Shown here one piece after another: positions 39,539 to 56,344 of a stretch of DNA of 57,341 nt. How positions within the stretch are numbered: position 1 is the stretch's first letter; each line of letters starts with the position of its first letter. The notes beneath the pieces are model-generated. The model was given only the letters and a program-made list of their open reading frames with translations. It was not told the DNA's origin and ran no database searches. Source of the stretch: Pseudomonadota bacterium (GTDB lineage: Bacteria; Desulfobacterota; Syntrophorhabdia; Syntrophorhabdales; Syntrophorhabdaceae); the NCBI GenBank assembly GCA_026388255.1, contig JAPLKC010000010.1:1-57341 (forward strand), written 5' to 3'. Made by a program: the position numbers and the translations under genes.

Positions 39539-40894
39539 TTATCCCTCATCTTTATAAATAGTTTTTAGAATCGTGGGTGTTACGAATATGAGAAGTTCGT
39601 TTTTTGTGTCCTTTTTGTGCTGATTTTTAAAGAGCCAGCCAAGAATAGGTATTTTCATAAGCAGCGGTATACCTGTTTCAGTATCATCGTTGGTTGTCTC
39701 ATAAATACCCCCTATAACAACTGTTTCCCCGTCCTTGATTATAACGTCTGTGGATGCCTCTTTTGTTGACATTGCTATGGTGGTTGGATTCCAGTTATAT
39801 GGATCATTTTTAGTTGCCTTGATTTTCATTTTTATTCTGCCGTCTTTTGTTGCATGTGGAGTGACCTCAAGGCTTAATTCTGCTTTTTTATATTCAATAG
39901 TTGGTGAAGCGCCTGCCATTGCAACAGTCTGATATGGTATTTCATTACCTTTTGATATTTTTGCAGTGATATTATCAGATGTTATAACTTTAGGATTAGC
40001 TATTGTTTTCACAATACCGTCTGTTTCTGCTGCAGCAATGGTTGCATCAAGAAAAAAACTTGCTGCGGCATCGCCTACAAGAAGTTGCAGCGCTCCGGCT
40101 TGAGCAGCAGGCATGGAGTTAATGCCTGGCTTGACAGACATGTCCCTGTTTAATAAATTACTTGTCCCTTGCATGGCAACGTTCCATTTAATACCCAGAT
40201 CTCGTTGAAAATTAGTGTCTGCTATTACAATTCTTGCGTGGATCTGAATCTGTACAGGAGGGAAATCATGTTTACTAACAATCTCCTTAATCACTGCAAC
40301 CTTTTCTTTTGTGTCTTTAACAATTATCGCATTTGTCCATTCCACCTCTGTGACTGTGCCGTATTCAGATAAAAGACCTTTCGCTCCGGCAGTTGCTGCA
40401 CCAGTTGTTGATGTAGTGGCCTCGCCTTTTATTACTCTTGCAACTTTATTTGCGGTTGTGTAATTCACGAAGATTGTCTCTGTAACAAACTCCTCCCCTT
40501 GCTTGAGTTTTTCAAGTTTTTCCCTTTGTAAAGCTGCCTTATCAGCACTTTCACGATTCTTTTCATCAAGAAACTTTTTTAATGTAATCACTCTGATGAT
40601 ATTCCCTTCTTCAAATTTTGACAGGTCCTTACTTTTGATTATAATATCCAGTGCTTCTTCCATAGAGACGTTATCGAGCTTCATAGTTACTGTCTTATCT
40701 TTCAGTTCTTTTAAATCATCTCCTATTATTATGCTTCTCTCCATTACATCGGCCAGCCCTCGAAGGACGTTTCGAACATCTGCGTCTACAAAATCAAAGG
40801 ACATCTTTTGGGGCTTTTTCACAGGTGCTTGACTGAAACAAAGAAACGGGATTGTAAATATTAAAAATAATATAATCAGTATTTTTTTAATCAT
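39539..40894 (-). CDS. pilQ: Type IV pilus secretin PilQ (compact form)
   Basis: 451 residues from the ATG at 40894, favoured over the GTG at 40900 because AGGAAGGG is then well spaced. It has a signal peptide, an STN/N0-like domain (MSFDFVDADVRNVLRGLADV), an N1-like domain with VNYTTANKVARVIKGE, and the secretin core (QIQIHARIVIADTNFQRDLGI, then VIGGIYETTNDDTETGIPLL and MKIPILGWLFKNQ). PilQ forms the outer-membrane pore. It is much shorter than proteobacterial PilQ of about 700 residues and lacks AMIN domains; the region before N0 is almost absent. It overlaps pilP. Confidence 0.92.
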   Translation of the reverse strand: MIKKILIILFLIFTIPFLCFSQAPVKKPQKMSFDFVDADVRNVLRGLADVMERSIIIGDDLKELKDKTVTMKLDNVSMEEALDIIIKSKDLSKFEEGNIIRVITLKKFLDEKNRESADKAALQREKLEKLKQGEEFVTETIFVNYTTANKVARVIKGEATTSTTGAATAGAKGLLSEYGTVTEVEWTNAIIVKDTKEKVAVIKEIVSKHDFPPVQIQIHARIVIADTNFQRDLGIKWNVAMQGTSNLLNRDMSVKPGINSMPAAQAGALQLLVGDAAASFFLDATIAAAETDGIVKTIANPKVITSDNITAKISKGNEIPYQTVAMAGASPTIEYKKAELSLEVTPHATKDGRIKMKIKATKNDPYNWNPTTIAMSTKEASTDVIIKDGETVVIGGIYETTNDDTETGIPLLMKIPILGWLFKNQHKKDTKNELLIFVTPTILKTIYKDEG

Positions 40895-40896
40895 AA

Positions 40897-41535
40897 TCAC
40901 ATCCCTTCCTTTTTTCTTGGGATTTCTATTGAAAATGTTTTGGTCTCCCCTTTTATTTTATAGCCGAATTCAACTTTATCTGCAAAAATATCAGTAATCC
41001 AAAGGTTTTTGTTCAAATAATCATTCTTCTTAAAAAGTATACCCTTACTCTGCATATCTTCCATCATAGCAAGGTTCCTACTACCGGCCTTCATAATTCC
41101 AACAAGTTTTAGCTCTTCAAGCTCATAACCCTTTTTTAAAACGGAAGCCTTTCCTGCTTGTTGTTTAATATCTTTCAGGAATGATGTTTCAAAAGGATCT
41201 CTCCTGTTGGCAGATGTATAGGTAAACTCACCTACGTTAAATTTTGGCGGTGCAGGCTCAGCTTTCTTGGCTTCCGCCTTTACTGCCCCAACCTTTGGCT
41301 GGGCTAAAGCTATATCCTGCACTGCAATAATCAATAGAAATATTACTAAAATACTTACAATATAAGCTTTAAACTCGCGAGCATTAATTCTGATAGAATC
41401 GGGACAACTCAAAACAGACAAACCAAAGTCCTGGTCAAGACCTACCGAATGGTGAGGAAGGTCTATGGCTCCCTTCCAACTCACTACTTCCAATTCATAA
41501 ATTCTTTTACTTCTTCGGTGTTTCACCTTTGCCAT
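40897..41535 (-). CDS. pilP: Type IV pilus assembly protein PilP with odd N-terminal extension
   Basis: 212 residues. The C-terminal half is PilP: RRDPFETSFL, LEELKLVGIMKAGSRNLAMM, KNDYLNKNLWITDIFADKVEF. A hydrophobic segment (about 57-77, AYIVSILVIFLLIIAVQDIA) acts as signal or anchor, without the lipobox cysteine of many PilP proteins. The first 55 residues, including VVSWKGAIDLPHHSVGLD, do not look like coding sequence; the DNA there resembles repeat-like filler. No in-frame ATG lies closer to the hydrophobic segment, so the true start is uncertain and may be a TTG. It overlaps pilO by 29 bases. Confidence 0.82.
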   Translation of the reverse strand: MAKVKHRRSKRIYELEVVSWKGAIDLPHHSVGLDQDFGLSVLSCPDSIRINAREFKAYIVSILVIFLLIIAVQDIALAQPKVGAVKAEAKKAEPAPPKFNVGEFTYTSANRRDPFETSFLKDIKQQAGKASVLKKGYELEELKLVGIMKAGSRNLAMMEDMQSKGILFKKNDYLNKNLWITDIFADKVEFGYKIKGETKTFSIEIPRKKEGM

Positions 41536-42172
41536 CCTTTTTCTCGTCCTTCTTTTCTACTTTCTTTTCATCTTTAGGCTGCTGCTTTAAATATACATAT
41601 GTTTTTGCTGTACATTCACCTGTAAGGTTTAATTTTCCTGGTTCTTTTTTACTATCCGGGGAAATAGAAAAACTTGTTACATTTATGATTCTTTCTAATT
41701 TTCTGATACCATCGAAAAAATATCCTATATGGTGAAAAGGACCAATATATCGGATACTAAATGGTAATTCTGAATAGTATTCTTTATTTTGTACAGGCCT
41801 TGGTTCAAAATAAGTTATTTTTAATCGGGTTTCCGTGCCAACAGTTGATATATTTCTCAGTAAATTAGGGATGTCTTTTGTCTCAGGCAACTGCTTAAGC
41901 ATTTGCTGCAGAAGTTCCTGTAATTGCGCATATTCCTTACGGAATTTGGGCATGTTGTTTTTGATGGCTACCATGTTATCAAGCTCTCTTTTAATATTGC
42001 TATATTCTTGGGCAAATTGTCTTTTGGTTTCAAGCTGTGGACTTAATACAAGGTAATAAAGCAAAGCAAAAAGTAATACATTAAGCCCAATACTAAAAAG
42101 CAGTTTATATATTCTTTTTATCTTTGCAATCTTTTTGCTTATTCCTTTAAAATCCATCTCTAATTTTTTCAT
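41507..42172 (-). CDS. pilO: Type IV pilus assembly protein PilO
   Basis: 221 residues: a short cytoplasmic start, one membrane helix (about 25-45), a coiled-coil (TKRQFAQEYSNIKRELDNM through LQQMLKQLPETKDI) and a periplasmic ferredoxin-like domain with GTETRLKITYFEPRP. The last 20 residues are Lys/Asp/Glu-rich. PilO pairs with PilN to form the inner-membrane alignment complex between PilM and PilP/PilQ. It overlaps pilN by four bases and pilP by 29. Confidence 0.92.
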   Translation of the reverse strand: MKKLEMDFKGISKKIAKIKRIYKLLFSIGLNVLLFALLYYLVLSPQLETKRQFAQEYSNIKRELDNMVAIKNNMPKFRKEYAQLQELLQQMLKQLPETKDIPNLLRNISTVGTETRLKITYFEPRPVQNKEYYSELPFSIRYIGPFHHIGYFFDGIRKLERIINVTSFSISPDSKKEPGKLNLTGECTAKTYVYLKQQPKDEKKVEKKDEKKDGKGETPKK

Positions 42173-42702
42173 AAAACCAGATCACCGGAAATGCTAAATT
42201 GTTTTACTGTAATTCCTTCCTCAATGATATCCTGTACATTTTTTAATTCTATATTTTTTATATATGGAATTTTTGATAAACTCTCAACAAGAGCTGAAAT
42301 AGATTCGTTTTCTAATGAACGTCCATCCAGTTCAAATTTATCATCTGTTTTTCTAAAACTTTTCAGCCATACGTTGTCCTTAATAACTGAGGTAAGATCG
42401 TACAAAATCCTTGGAGAGAGCGCCCTACCCTCTTTTATGCCGTCAATTGCTTTAATTCTTCTCTGTATCTCTTTCTTCTCCTGCTCCATTGCAAGATATT
42501 CTTTATAAACGCTTTGAAGGTTTGCGATCTCTTTTTTAGCATTCTCGATTTGTGCTTTATAGTTTGATATATCCTTTGCGTTAATGTAATAAATTCCGCC
42601 AAAAATCATAAAATTTATTATCATTACAGAAAAAAACAGGTATATGTCAATCTTTAGTAAATCTTTTTTTGCTTTACCGGGTAAAAGGTTTATTTTAATC
42701 AT
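42169..42702 (-). CDS. pilN: Type IV pilus assembly protein PilN
   Basis: 177 residues. It starts with the PilM-binding motif MIKINLLPGKAK, followed by a membrane helix (about 20-42), a coiled coil (YKAQIENAKKEIANLQSVYKEYL in two short parts) and a ferredoxin-like periplasmic domain ending in FSISGDLVL. The conserved INLLP motif inserts into a groove of PilM. Overlaps of four bases with both pilM and pilO show tight coupling. Confidence 0.94.
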   Translation of the reverse strand: MIKINLLPGKAKKDLLKIDIYLFFSVMIINFMIFGGIYYINAKDISNYKAQIENAKKEIANLQSVYKEYLAMEQEKKEIQRRIKAIDGIKEGRALSPRILYDLTSVIKDNVWLKSFRKTDDKFELDGRSLENESISALVESLSKIPYIKNIELKNVQDIIEEGITVKQFSISGDLVL

Positions 42703-44285
42703 TGTCCTAAATCCGTAACCCTTGAAGATAAATAAAGCGCTATACTCATGAAAGTACTGTATTCTTCATAAGCACGATGTTTAGCTTGATCCAGATTTAA
42801 AAGTAATAATGGGTCTATATATTCTATTTCTATCCGGGAATCTTCCTCTATTTTTTCCCTTAGCCCTTTCAGTAAAGATGAGCCGCCTGTCAGGTATATT
42901 TTCCCAATGGTGTCATTAGGTTTTGTGGCAGTGTAAAAATTGATTGTTTTTGTAATTTCAGACGAGATGTTGAATATATAATCTTCAAATAAATATGCAA
43001 CCTCGCTATCAGCTATTATTTTCTTTTCTTCAGCCTCAATATGGCTAAGTTTGGTAGATTTTTCTATTTGGTTGGTTAAGTATTTCCCCCCCAGTAATAT
43101 TTCCCTTGTAAATTCAACACTGTTGTTTTTGATTATTGCAATATTTGTTATAGATGCACCTATATCTACAGCAACTACTGAAAAATCTTTCGGGTTGTAT
43201 ATCTGCTCAATAATATTTGTAACAGCAAAAATATCCACATCCAGAATTTGCAAATTTAAGCCTGCTAAATTGAATGCAGTTGTATATCCATCAACAATTT
43301 CTTTTTTTGCTGCAACAATCTGAATGTTCATCATATCTTCTTTTTCTTCATCCACTCCAAGCACATGGTAACTATAGTATATGTCCTTTAAAGGAAAAGG
43401 AATAACCGCCTCCACTTCGAGTCTTATACTATTTTCAAGCTCTTCTTCCTCAAGAAAAGGAACCATAACCTTTTTCGTGATTATTGTATAGCTTGACAAT
43501 GCACAGGCCACATCCTTGCATTTGATATTATTCTCCGCTATTAATTTTTTCAGCTCCTGCGCAACAAACACCTGGTCTATTATGTTTCCGTCACTCAGGA
43601 TATCCTCTTCGTATGACTTTTTGGCTATGTTCTGTATTTGGAAACCGTCATTGGTTTTCTTTAAAGTACATATTTTTATCGAAACGCTTCCAATATCTAA
43701 ACCTATTAATTCATTTATTGTTCTTAGTCCTATTTTACTAAGAATGTCTAAGCCTGGTAAAAAACCTGCCTTAGTTGATTTAGCATTCTTTTCTTTTCTT
43801 TTTTCAGCTTTTTTATTTATCTTATTTTCTTCATAATCTTTATTTTTAGTTATTGTATCCGTATATATACTGCTATCATGCCCATCCTGTTCCTGCTCAT
43901 TCAAATCTTTGTTTTCGCTTATTGTATCGGGAAGTATATATCCGGATGGGCTGGAATTATCGAAAGCCATAATAAATACAGTTATATAAAAAAACAATGA
44001 TCCTATGCCGTACAACCAATAACTCTTTCCAAGTCGCTGCGCGATACTTCCCCATATATGAATAGCAAAATAAATATTTACAATGGGTACCATAAGTCCC
44101 AGTACATTCCATGGTGAAATATTACCGCACCTGCACATCAGAACCATATTATATAACGGTATACAATATTCCAGAAAAGAGCCTGTTACAAACTTCCTGC
44201 CGATCCGGTACATGACATAGGAGAAGAAGAAATATACCCCAGCAGCAACAATAATTGAAATCAACATTGGTATTATTTGTCTCAT
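42699..44285 (-). CDS. pilM: PilM with an N-terminal DUF5684-like membrane domain
   Basis: 528 residues, about 180 longer than normal PilM. The first 110 residues hold several membrane helices with IPLYNMVLM, VPIVNIYFAIHIWG and AQRLGKSYWLYGIGSLFF, which fits DUF5684, a small membrane domain usually found alone or beside signal peptidases. A charged linker (about 112-180) leads to an actin-like PilM core: IGLDIGSVSIKI, VPFLEEEELENSIRLEVEAVIPF, VAVDIGASITNIAI and LTGGSSLLKGL. PilM is normally a soluble ring subunit that binds PilN; here it would be tethered to the membrane by itself. The fusion is in one continuous frame with no sign of a frameshift. Confidence 0.88.
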   Translation of the reverse strand: MRQIIPMLISIIVAAGVYFFFSYVMYRIGRKFVTGSFLEYCIPLYNMVLMCRCGNISPWNVLGLMVPIVNIYFAIHIWGSIAQRLGKSYWLYGIGSLFFYITVFIMAFDNSSPSGYILPDTISENKDLNEQEQDGHDSSIYTDTITKNKDYEENKINKKAEKRKEKNAKSTKAGFLPGLDILSKIGLRTINELIGLDIGSVSIKICTLKKTNDGFQIQNIAKKSYEEDILSDGNIIDQVFVAQELKKLIAENNIKCKDVACALSSYTIITKKVMVPFLEEEELENSIRLEVEAVIPFPLKDIYYSYHVLGVDEEKEDMMNIQIVAAKKEIVDGYTTAFNLAGLNLQILDVDIFAVTNIIEQIYNPKDFSVVAVDIGASITNIAIIKNNSVEFTREILLGGKYLTNQIEKSTKLSHIEAEEKKIIADSEVAYLFEDYIFNISSEITKTINFYTATKPNDTIGKIYLTGGSSLLKGLREKIEEDSRIEIEYIDPLLLLNLDQAKHRAYEEYSTFMSIALYLSSRVTDLGQ

Positions 44286-44390: not shown

Positions 44391-46421
44391 TTATTGCTTT
44401 TGAAGCTTTGATTCATAAAAATCAACCCTATCTTTTAAGTATTTGACAAAAGAATCTTTTTCAATGTACTCTCTTGCAAGTATATTTCCAGCTACATTTT
44501 TATCCTTCTCTGCATCTTCCAGGTTTCTTTTTGCCAGTTTAAAGGCGTTTTGAATATTCCCGTCCAGATACTCAATATTTGATTCCAGGTCTCTCATCTT
44601 ATATACATAAAGTCCATGCATTTCAGAGCCTGTGTGTCTATCAGCATAAGTTTTCATGCGTTGAATTAACATTTTAGCCTTCTCCAGGTTACCGTTTATT
44701 AAATAAAAGTTAGCTGTTTCATACATATAAAACCCTGAAGAGGGGTGATATTGTAATGCTTTTTTAAAATAATCTTCTGCTTTTTCAATATTTCCCAGTA
44801 GCGAATTAATGCTGCCTGCAACAAAGAATAATTCTGAGTATTTATCCGGGTTATGTTCTATCTGTGGTAAGAATTGAACGATTATGTTCTTAATCTTTAT
44901 TTTTTCATATGCATTCTGTTCAACCTTATAATATCTTAGCAGAACATTCATCATCCCGATATATCCATAATTATTTATCGGCATAGTGTTTATAGATTCC
45001 CCATAGGAGACAAAGGCCTCTTGTAATAACCCGTTTTCCGTAAATATTGCCCCCTCTTCATTCATTTTTACAGAAATATTTGCCCTTTCAGTGAAGAAAA
45101 AGGAGCCCATCAGCGTAATGGCTACAAGTAAAAATATCATTACAGCCAATGCTCCATGCCTTTGCCTCACTCTATCTACGTTTTCTGTCCCCCGTTCCCC
45201 TGCGAAAAAAACAGATGATAGGATAAAAAATGTAATAGCATAAGCAGGCATTTCGAAAGTAACATTGGAAACAGCGAAAAGGAATCCGGATATGGCCGAT
45301 ATTGCAATAAAAAAATATTTTGTATCGTTATTTCCCGTATCCCGAATCATCCTTATTACACCAATTATAAAACCAAAAAGGTAAATTAAAAAAGATATAA
45401 GCCCGAGCAAGCCAAGCTCAACCATGATTTTTATAAAAACATTGTGAGCATATTTTGTATATAGAGTAGCGTTATAATATTTTCTATATGCATGTTCAAA
45501 TGTCCCGGCGCCATAACCTAATAGGGGTTTATCCAAAAATGCATTGATGCCTATTTTCCATGTCACTGTTCGATAAGTAAGGGTTGTAATATGTGTGGTC
45601 GTTTTATTTAATCTATCAATTGCTCTGTCCTGAAAAGCATCACTTTTTCCTTTTCCGCCAATATAGACGACAGATATGAGTATAGTTAAGGCAAGTAAAA
45701 CGATCAATATGAGGAATACCGCCTTTTTAAACCTCTTTTTCATGATTAGCAATACAAAGCCAGCTATTATCGAAAGAGCACCTATAAACATGCCCATTCT
45801 CGAAAGAGAAAATAGAAGGCCAAATATAATAATAGAAGACATTACCATATACAGGATTTTCTTTTGAATGAGGCCAAAATAGATGCTTAAGGGGATCAAA
45901 AACAGAAAATATCCGCCAAGTGTGGCTTCGTTTAAAAACGATGAAAACGGCACAACCTTCCCTTTAATAACAGAGCTATACATCCCGTCTTTATAGAACT
46001 CTAACAATTTTGGTAATAAAACTTTATATTGTATAATCATACATAGCACGGATAGCACGGTTCCAAAAATAAGTGCTTTTAAAAGCGCATCCTTGTTTTC
46101 CGATATCATATAAAGGTAAACGCACCCTACTATCCATACAATTATATTCAACTCGCATAAGGTGTTAAACCTGTTCCATGTGTAAAGAATGGACGCGACA
46201 TTTATTAAAACAAATGGCATGAAATATAGCATGAATCTCAAAAAACCTGAAGGGATACTCCTTATTTTATAAAAATTAAAAGAAACGGCAACTAACAATG
46301 CAAGCACAAAATTAGTTTCGATCCAGAATTTGTCAATAGTGAAATAAAAGAAGGAAAGGTGGTTGCCGCCAAGAAATGGTATGATGAAGAAGGGTATGCA
46401 TTGCAAGAGTTTAAGATACAA
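44391..46421 (-). CDS. O-antigen-ligase-like membrane protein with C-terminal TPR domain
   Basis: 676 residues. About ten to twelve membrane helices cover 1-445. A Wzy/WaaL-type periplasmic loop has YRTVTWKIGINAFLDKPLLGYGAGTFEH and YAHNVFIKIMVELGLLG, the signature of the O-antigen ligase family. The rest is a soluble TPR region (YGESINTMPINNYGYIG, NIEKAEDYFKKALQYHPSSG, NLEKAKMLIQRMK). Such fusions include lipopolysaccharide ligases, polymerases and pilin O-oligosaccharyltransferases (PglL/TfpO). Its place between the pilM-Q operon and a prepilin peptidase makes pilin glycosylation attractive, but this is inference. Confidence 0.78.
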   Translation of the reverse strand: MYLKLLQCIPFFIIPFLGGNHLSFFYFTIDKFWIETNFVLALLVAVSFNFYKIRSIPSGFLRFMLYFMPFVLINVASILYTWNRFNTLCELNIIVWIVGCVYLYMISENKDALLKALIFGTVLSVLCMIIQYKVLLPKLLEFYKDGMYSSVIKGKVVPFSSFLNEATLGGYFLFLIPLSIYFGLIQKKILYMVMSSIIIFGLLFSLSRMGMFIGALSIIAGFVLLIMKKRFKKAVFLILIVLLALTILISVVYIGGKGKSDAFQDRAIDRLNKTTTHITTLTYRTVTWKIGINAFLDKPLLGYGAGTFEHAYRKYYNATLYTKYAHNVFIKIMVELGLLGLISFLIYLFGFIIGVIRMIRDTGNNDTKYFFIAISAISGFLFAVSNVTFEMPAYAITFFILSSVFFAGERGTENVDRVRQRHGALAVMIFLLVAITLMGSFFFTERANISVKMNEEGAIFTENGLLQEAFVSYGESINTMPINNYGYIGMMNVLLRYYKVEQNAYEKIKIKNIIVQFLPQIEHNPDKYSELFFVAGSINSLLGNIEKAEDYFKKALQYHPSSGFYMYETANFYLINGNLEKAKMLIQRMKTYADRHTGSEMHGLYVYKMRDLESNIEYLDGNIQNAFKLAKRNLEDAEKDKNVAGNILAREYIEKDSFVKYLKDRVDFYESKLQKQ

Positions 46422-46729: not shown

Positions 46730-47497
46730 TCAGCGTTCCGCAACAATGTTAAGAAACTCATATATGATTTTATCCCCGAGGAACATAAATATTAATGCAC
46801 CAAGAGATAGAAAAGGTCCAAAAGGGATTGCATATTTAGCATCCTCACCTTTTATAAGCATCATAGGTATGCCAACCAAAGTCCCCAACAATGAACCAGC
46901 CATAAGGCTGAATATTACCCCTTTTATCCCGCAAAAAGCTCCTATCATTGCAAGGAGCTTTATATCACCGCCACCCATGCCCTCTCTTTTTCTTAATAGC
47001 TGATAGCCGTAGGCAATGACGAAGAGGATTCCACCGCCAAGAAATATTCCATAAAGTGCATCAAGATAAAAGAAAAAGGGTTTTCTGAAAAAAGCCAGAA
47101 TAAAACCGGCAATCAGACCCCCTATGCTTAAAACATCGGGGATGATTTTAAAATCAAGATCTATAAAGGATATGGCAATAAGCAGTGAAATAAAGAGCAT
47201 ACTAACAAACAACTCAAAGGAAAGGCCGCATTTTTTAAAAAGCATAAAGAAAAGAAAGGCGGTTATAAACTCCACTATGGGATATCTTATCGATATATGA
47301 GCGCTGCATTGCCTGCATTTGCCCCTTAACAACAGATAACTTATTATAGGGATATTGTCGTAGAGCTTTATAGGTTTTTCACAGGTAGGGCAGAATGATG
47401 AAGGAACTACGATTGACTTGATTCTCGGCAATCTATAAATACAAACATTAAGAAAACTTCCGACTATTGCCCCAAAAATAAACAATATATAATTCAT
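46730..47497 (-). CDS. pilD: Prepilin peptidase/N-methyltransferase (copy 1)
   Basis: 255 residues with eight or so membrane helices. The cytoplasmic methyltransferase-type loop has Cys pairs C36-C39 and C61-C64. Peptidase aspartates lie in SFIDLDFKIIPD (Asp113, Asp115) and in GMGGGDIKL, where the GxGD motif appears as GGGD. It cuts the leader of type IV prepilins and methylates the new N-terminal residue. A 333-bp stretch (47066-47398) is nearly identical to a second copy at 55568-56344. The ATG follows a hairpin (47546-47570) and the strong terminator of pilA, so it needs its own promoter. Confidence 0.94.
   Translation of the reverse strand: MNYILFIFGAIVGSFLNVCIYRLPRIKSIVVPSSFCPTCEKPIKLYDNIPIISYLLLRGKCRQCSAHISIRYPIVEFITAFLFFMLFKKCGLSFELFVSMLFISLLIAISFIDLDFKIIPDVLSIGGLIAGFILAFFRKPFFFYLDALYGIFLGGGILFVIAYGYQLLRKREGMGGGDIKLLAMIGAFCGIKGVIFSLMAGSLLGTLVGIPMMLIKGEDAKYAIPFGPFLSLGALIFMFLGDKIIYEFLNIVAER
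47066..47398. repeat. 333-bp repeat shared with the second prepilin peptidase gene (copy 1)
   Basis: Aligned by eye, base by base and without gaps, to 55904-56236, this block differs at about 18 positions (about 95% identity). Outside it the two genes are clearly less alike. Both copies have the same orientation, about 8.5 kb apart. Confidence 0.85.
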
Positions 47498-55567: not shown

Positions 55568-56344
55568 TTATCTTCTTGATATAAAGTGAAGAAAGCCATA
55601 TATAAACCTATCTCCCATAAACAAATAAAATAAAGCCCCCAGGGACAAAAAAGGACCGAATGGAATGGCGTACTTTGTATCTTTCCCTTTTATCAGCATT
55701 AACGGTATACCGATTAGAGTACCTATAAAAGAACCGGACAAAAAACTGAATACAGCCCCCTTAAGTCCATAAAAAGCGCCTATCATTCCAAGGAGCTTTA
55801 TATCACCGCCGCCCATGCCCTCTTTTTTTGTAAAAAACTTATAAACATAGGCAATAATAAAAAGAATACCTCCGCCTATTAAGATACCATAAACAGCATC
55901 CTTATAAAAGAAAAAGGGTTTTCTGAAAAAAGCCAGAATAAAACCGGCAATCAGACCCCCCATGCTTAAAACATCGGGAATGACTTTAAAATCAAGGTCT
56001 ATAAAGGATATGGCAATAAGCAGGGAAACAAATAGCATACTGATAAACAATTCAAGGGAAAGGCCATATTTTTTAAAAAGCATAAAGAAAAGAAAGGCGG
56101 TTATAAACTCCACTATGGGATATCTTATCGATATATGAGCGTTGCATTGCCTGCATTTGCCTCTCAACAACAGATAACTTATTATAGGAATATTGTCGTA
56201 AAGCTTTATAGGTTTTTCACAGGTAGGGCAGAATGAATTAGGCATGACTATTGACCTGTTTCGAGGGAGCCTGTAGATACATACATTAAGAAAACTACCG
56301 ACAATTGAACCAAATATGGGAACAAGAACGTTGATCATATTCAT
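55568..56344 (-). CDS. pilD: Prepilin peptidase/N-methyltransferase (copy 2)
   Basis: 258 residues, a close paralogue of the copy at 46730-47497, with the same Cys pairs (SFCPTCEKP, GKCRQCNAH), aspartates in SFIDLDFKVIPD and GMGGGDIKL. It leads the operon pilD2-pilY1-fimT-pilV-pilW-pilX. A strong promoter (56371-56399) and an AAGAGG site precede the ATG. It probably serves prepilins of this operon, but either peptidase could act on all. Part of the gene (55904-56236) is near-identical to copy 1. Confidence 0.94.
   Translation of the reverse strand: MNMINVLVPIFGSIVGSFLNVCIYRLPRNRSIVMPNSFCPTCEKPIKLYDNIPIISYLLLRGKCRQCNAHISIRYPIVEFITAFLFFMLFKKYGLSLELFISMLFVSLLIAISFIDLDFKVIPDVLSMGGLIAGFILAFFRKPFFFYKDAVYGILIGGGILFIIAYVYKFFTKKEGMGGGDIKLLGMIGAFYGLKGAVFSFLSGSFIGTLIGIPLMLIKGKDTKYAIPFGPFLSLGALFYLFMGDRFIYGFLHFISRR
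55904..56236. repeat. 333-bp repeat shared with the first prepilin peptidase gene (copy 2)
   Basis: Partner of the block at 47066-47398, with about 18 differences and no gaps by eye. It encodes the residues from the Cys pairs to the first peptidase aspartates and somewhat beyond. The much higher similarity here than at the gene ends suggests sequence exchange between the copies. Confidence 0.85.

Follow-up and report, generated by a model that had tools for sequence, protein, structure and literature searches.

A type IV pilus PilM with its own N-terminal DUF5684 membrane domain in Syntrophorhabdaceae

Analysis of a 57,341-nucleotide stretch of DNA from a member of the Syntrophorhabdaceae (contig JAPLKC010000010.1 of assembly GCA_026388255.1; hereafter the window) showed that its pilM gene encodes, in one open frame, a multi-helix membrane domain, a charged linker and a complete PilM actin-like core. 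The product is probably the functional PilM of a type IVa pilus machine, synthesised as a single polypeptide and anchored in the inner membrane by a DUF5684 domain at its own N-terminus. The host group consists mostly of uncultured anaerobic bacteria.

One open frame joins a membrane domain to a PilM core

The fusion gene occupies exactly 42699-44285 on the minus strand, with no stop codon inside its 528 codons. It is the first gene of an intact pilMNOPQ operon, in which Pfam recognises pilN, pilO, pilP and pilQ. The features of the gene and operon are as follows.

42699..44285, minus strand: pilM fusion gene, 528 aa, ATG start, stop codon at 42699-42701
43953..44285, minus strand: N-terminal membrane domain, residues 1-111 (Pfam, AlphaFold model and 12-sequence alignment)
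43743..43952, minus strand: charged linker, residues 112-181; distal part net -6, proximal 33 residues net +4
42702..43742, minus strand: PilM actin-like core including its N-terminal helix, residues 182-528
43674-43676, minus strand: codon of K204, aligned to the ATP-binding K26 of Thermus PilM (2ych)
42169..42702, minus strand: pilN, a separate gene with a 4-base overlap with the end of pilM; product begins MIKINLLP
41507..42172, minus strand: pilO (PF04350, 3e-39)
40897..41535, minus strand: pilP (PF04351, 4e-7)
39539..40900, minus strand: pilQ secretin (PF00263, 1e-47)

The membrane domain, of about 111 aa and helical, is followed by a charged linker of about 70 aa that is predicted to be disordered, and then by the complete core. 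Residues 195-503 matched Pfam PilM_2 (PF11104) with 209.2 bits (cut-off 27), and the protein scored 220.1 bits against NCBIfam TIGR01175 pilM (cut-off 133). Residues 41-110 matched Pfam DUF5684 (PF18936) with 36.0 bits (cut-off 27.4). The N-terminal hydrophobic helices are at odds with one trait of PilM, the lack of a membrane segment of its own, which is typical of the family and not demanded by the profile. K204 was invariant across the 12 fused sequences; the ATP-binding role of K26 in Thermus PilM is described in the passages cited from PMC6325625. The single open frame and the profile scores confirm what a sequence-only reading of the window had proposed, an in-frame fusion of PilM to a DUF5684-like multi-helix membrane domain through a charged linker. 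As an observation, the fusion is real.

Upstream of the fusion gene, 44391-46421 encodes an O-antigen-ligase-like membrane protein with TPRs. Farther upstream are genes with pilin-like N-termini (judged by eye) and two prepilin-peptidase-like genes, which mark the region as a type IV pilus cluster. The two prepilin-peptidase-like genes, at 46730-47497 and 55568-56344 (-), are 79% identical to each other; between them lie the block of pilin-like genes and a gene of 1327 aa that matched no Pfam family.

The assembly that holds the window (3.83 Mb, 147 contigs, ~98% complete) contains two PilM-like genes, the fusion and a GspL-type gene.

L100:4802-6469, minus strand: GspL-type gene of the window's genome, 555 aa; adjoins PilO-like, T2SSC-like and secretin genes

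These neighbours identify the 555-aa gene as GspL. The possibility that the fusion is a paralogue beside an ordinary PilM was rejected, the second copy in the genome being, at this completeness, only of the GspL type. Two modes of anchoring an actin-like pilus protein can thus be compared within a single genome.

Structure and predicted topology of the membrane domain

Modelled alone with AlphaFold, the membrane domain was all-helical (mean pLDDT 86.9, pTM 0.73), with helices at residues 4-30, 37-41/43-53, 58-64/67-84 and 89-98/101-108. The full-length model was modest (mean pLDDT 65.5, pTM 0.45). The predicted elements are listed below.

44196..44276, minus strand: predicted TM1, residues 4-30, ending in the basic R-I-G-R-K, on the presumed cytoplasmic side (model helix, hydropathy)
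44127..44177, minus strand: broken pair of short helices, residues 37-53, probably re-entrant or interfacial (model)
44034..44114, minus strand: predicted TM2, residues 58-84, with a break near 65-66 (hydropathy, model)
43962..44021, minus strand: predicted TM3, residues 89-108, with a break near 99-100 (hydropathy, model)

The domain would make three crossings with a re-entrant pair, so that the N-terminus would be on the outer side and the core in the cytoplasm. The basic stretch that follows TM1 supports this arrangement, as does the PilM core, which has to be cytoplasmic. A weakness is the basic QRLGK loop (83-87), which would face outwards, against the positive-inside rule. Two further proteins, from elsewhere in the phylum, bear on the orientation.

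L093:817-1830, plus strand: DUF5684 protein with a putative signal peptide, a Pro/Ala-rich stretch and DUF5684 at the C-terminus (by eye)
L096:1489-2412, minus strand: DUF5684 protein with a putative signal peptide, a Pro/Ala-rich stretch and DUF5684 at the C-terminus (by eye)

Since an apparently exported region precedes the domain in both, the N-terminus of DUF5684 would lie outside. The two proteins are themselves useful as topology markers for DUF5684.

In the 12-sequence alignment, which spans four genera, 29 of the 115 columns of the membrane domain were invariant, including C51, W59-N60, W78-G79-S80 and G86-K87. No solved fold matched the domain (best E 5.1). Given this and the modest full-length model, DUF5684 may do more than anchor. 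The name DUF5684 occurred in none of the open-licence PubMed Central papers searched.

In the full-length model residues 116-188 had pLDDT <50, as expected of a disordered linker. Among the fused sequences the linker was 67-104 residues long and poorly conserved. In most sequences its charge was acidic in the distal part and basic near the core; the net charge of the proximal part ranged from 0 to +4 in the 12 fused sequences, with a value of zero in two. A similar basic stretch lies before the core in the seven linker-only relatives and in a YciC-like fusion, all described below. A search for a promoter or terminator between the domains gave nothing above shuffles. Given the disorder and varying length of the linker, a concentration tether is preferred over rigid coupling, and an anchor attached through such a linker need not dictate ring geometry.

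Distribution, selection and origin of the fusion

The sequence-only reading had suggested that the same fusion be sought in other genomes, and it was found there. A DUF5684 profile search of the Syntrophorhabdaceae matched 13 of 39 genomes, in four genera, each match lying in a frame of 533-567 aa and always on PilM; the domain never occurred apart from PilM in the genomes searched. G021, with a DUF5684 score of 26.2, just under the 27.4 cut-off, is counted among the 13, and in G060, the thirteenth, the PilM core was confirmed in the same frame. A sample of 60 related genomes yielded 30 PilM loci, the GspL copy being left aside. Twelve of these carry the DUF5684 fusion in one open frame, one carries another membrane domain and 17 carry neither; within the Syntrophorhabdaceae the counts are 12, 1 and 11, respectively. 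Among the nearest named records, which are Syntrophorhabdus and Syntrophorhabdaceae bins, 9 of 14 loci matched both domains and 5 matched the core only. Identity to the window was 49-76% for the membrane domains and 57-89% for the cores.

The scan was extended to 395 genomes of the phylum, 286 of which gave a match. Among the approximately 150 matches listed, four covered the membrane domain, all of them from Syntrophorhabdaceae. No hydrophobic domain preceded the core in ten longer-frame PilM loci taken from the listed matches, nor in those of 26 further loci where the core was recognised (every one except L070 and L076), save for the YciC-like domain of G012. A first scan of contigs with the fusion protein as single query found no relative.

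L101:6017-8074, minus strand: 685-aa PilM of G012 (same gene as L027), with a UPF0259/DUF975/YciC-like membrane domain in the same place

The YciC-like domain is in frame and unrelated to DUF5684; its score is below the Pfam cut-offs, and a charged linker of ~120 residues joins it to PilM. Its occurrence in 1 of 46 genomes of the order suggests that it may be a one-off. The PilM of seven relatives (five g8 genomes, G011 and G014) has the linker without a membrane domain. PilM in the relatives may accordingly be bare, linker-only or fitted with a different membrane domain.

Rates of substitution were compared between species pairs. The dN/dS ratio was 0.065-0.134 for the membrane domain (8 pairs, dS being saturated in one). 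In the 7 pairs that could be measured for each of the other two parts, it was 0.035-0.082 for the core and 0.17-0.43 for the linker. The low ratio in frame indicates that the membrane domain is translated in this frame and constrained. Judged from these codons, purifying selection acts on both membrane domain and core.

A single clade of the 12 fused cores was rejected in the maximum-likelihood tree of PilM cores (p-AU 2.5e-53), and at least three changes are needed to explain the fused and unfused forms. An ancestral fusion with several losses would fit the tree, as would two acquisitions and one loss. No decayed remnant of the membrane domain was detected at 18 loci that lack it (best profile E 0.017, below inclusion), and no close DUF5684 donor among the 395 phylum genomes, where the best score outside the family was 32.4 bits against 172-198 inside. 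The domain is absent from many relatives with the same operon and is thus not essential to the machine. In evolution, the membrane domain is a dispensable add-on.

PilN docking and proposed mechanism

Known PilM proteins are soluble and cytoplasmic and are brought to the membrane by PilN, according to the passages cited from PMC6325625 and PMC5285504; in the former, Thermus PilM is soluble without PilN and membrane-bound with it. The PilN start MI(K/R)(I/V)NL(L/I)P was found at 28 of the 29 loci that reach pilN (one of the 30 PilM loci ends before it), with fused and unfused PilM alike. The remaining pilN, from the window's sister species (G001, locus L003), has the motif and is then frameshifted. 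This frameshift lies inside the TM segment, beside a run of T, and may be a sequencing error or a real loss. Because PilN keeps its PilM-docking motif, the anchor most likely supplements PilN docking rather than substituting for it. With both this motif and the ATP-site lysine kept, the core is expected to retain the functions of PilM. The sequence-only reading had expected self-anchoring to change how PilN binding regulates PilM; it may do so, but the docking motif is the same beside fused and unfused genes.

Under the proposed mechanism, the N-terminal DUF5684 domain would supply the membrane association of PilM, and the disordered linker would serve as a leash that concentrates PilM at the membrane. 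The leashed core could reach the N-terminal peptide of PilN as well as the motor ATPase. PilN would then set the position and state of PilM instead of recruiting it from the cytosol. A more far-reaching and decidedly tentative version would have a PilM ring built of integral membrane subunits, with PilN freed from recruiting and acting only as regulator. The membrane domain might in that case sense the membrane or touch PilC, and the need for it might have been strong enough for an independent YciC-like fusion to arise in a sister genus.

PilN has two tasks in the systems studied so far, to recruit PilM to the membrane and to change its state, and these are not easily told apart. A PilM that would by nature reside in the membrane already, together with bare, linker-only and other-anchor relatives, provides ready constructs with which recruitment can be separated from regulation. 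The fusion also supplies a topology marker for DUF5684.

Alternative explanations

The frame could have arisen by accident, through an assembly chimera or the loss of a stop codon between neighbouring genes. The named relatives are metagenome bins and the YciC-like fusion is present in a single genome of 46, as an accident would allow; the DUF5684 fusion, however, recurs in 13 assemblies with normal divergence and with purifying selection in frame, and an accidental origin is scarcely credible. The same assemblies and the codon constraint refute an assembly or frameshift artefact for the DUF5684 fusion, a verdict that does not extend to the lone YciC-like case. Alternatively, a restart in the linker or a protease cut might release ordinary soluble PilM, the membrane domain then being a by-product or a separate small protein. 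Long, disordered linkers would suit this, and well-pairing start codons occur at the border of linker and core in several relatives. In G003 (L008) two ATGs at residues 201/203 have very strong ribosome-site pairing (-11.1 kcal/mol), and in the g4 genomes G021, G032, G035 and G036 an ATG at 198-200 pairs at -5.4 to -6.1 kcal/mol; in all five the pairing is as good as or stronger than that of the gene's own start. Other linker codons also pair well, by chance or not, such as GTG at 158 in G035 (-10.6 kcal/mol). Soluble PilM could thus be made beside the fusion in G003 and the four g4 genomes, as far as start-site pairing can tell. The border start is not conserved, however, and no good ATG is present in G015, G004, G026 and G034 (-1.3 to +0.9 kcal/mol) or in G001 (+2.2). 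Past residue 100, the fusion gene of the window has two start-type codons, ATG106 and TTG128, and none from 128 to the core at 194; pairing is -3.4 kcal/mol at the gene's own start, +0.9 at ATG106 and -2.4 at TTG128. An internal start giving soluble PilM only, which the sequence-only reading had named as the observation that would count against it, was not seen there, the weakly pairing TTG128 being the sole candidate after residue 106. Between residue 106 and the core, the gene in the window has neither ATG nor GTG, which makes a soluble-only product unlikely there. Together with a membrane domain that is in frame, constrained and never apart from PilM in the family, this makes the two-product explanation improbable.

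It is also conceivable, though we would not favour it, that the membrane domain acts chiefly in sensing, or in contacting PilC/PilNO, to regulate pilus assembly, with anchoring secondary. The 29 invariant columns seem too many for a plain anchor, and a disordered leash would be poor at fixing ring geometry. Against this, DUF5684 has no known ligand site or partner in the open-licence PubMed Central papers searched, the domain resembles no solved fold, and an unrelated membrane domain takes the equivalent position in L027, in favour of a generic role. A PilM anchored by its own N-terminal domain is the reading that we prefer.

Comparison with known systems

Compared with type IVa PilM (PF11104/TIGR01175; 2ych, 5eou, 3jc8), the fusion shares the core profile, the ATP-site lysine, the pilMNOPQ order and the PilN motif; the fusion alone has a multi-pass domain and linker before the core. 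The sequence-only reading had also held that no described case was known. With regard to self-anchored PilM-like proteins in general this did not stand, since the passages cited describe several. GspL/PulL, a PilM-PilN fusion (PMC10191384), has a PilM-like actin domain tied to the membrane within its own chain (PMC10191384, PMC3815138), as the present protein does. In GspL a single TM helix follows the actin domain and leads to a PilN-like periplasmic domain, whereas the fusion has an N-terminal multi-pass anchor and a separate pilN. Its chain ends with the core at residue 528 and PilN is the next gene, so that it does not have the GspL architecture.

In most type IV pilus clusters of Campylobacterota pilM and pilN are fused, according to the passages cited from PMC11870540, which likewise ties PilM to the membrane in its own chain. 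The partner there is PilN itself, and the gene order suggests that the membrane helix follows the actin-like domain; in the window the partner is an unrelated N-terminal domain, and pilM and pilN lie in separate frames that overlap by 4 bases. In BfpC and PilO2 (PF06864) of type IVb pili, a TM helix joins the actin-like domain to a second domain in the passages cited from PMC3984277. These proteins share with the fusion an actin-like domain joined to a membrane helix, but theirs is a single helix placed after that domain, and they belong to another pilus type. Other DUF5684-like matches in the phylum are mostly stand-alone proteins of 109-123 aa or lie C-terminal to an apparently exported region; unlike them, the DUF5684 of the window precedes a cytoplasmic actin-fold domain.

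For an N-terminal multi-pass PilM anchor with a separate PilN, the claim of no described case held in the literature search, in which no such anchor was found among open-licence PubMed Central papers. Anchored PilM-like proteins are already known, and the novelty is an N-terminal multi-pass anchor on a PilM whose PilN remains a separate protein.
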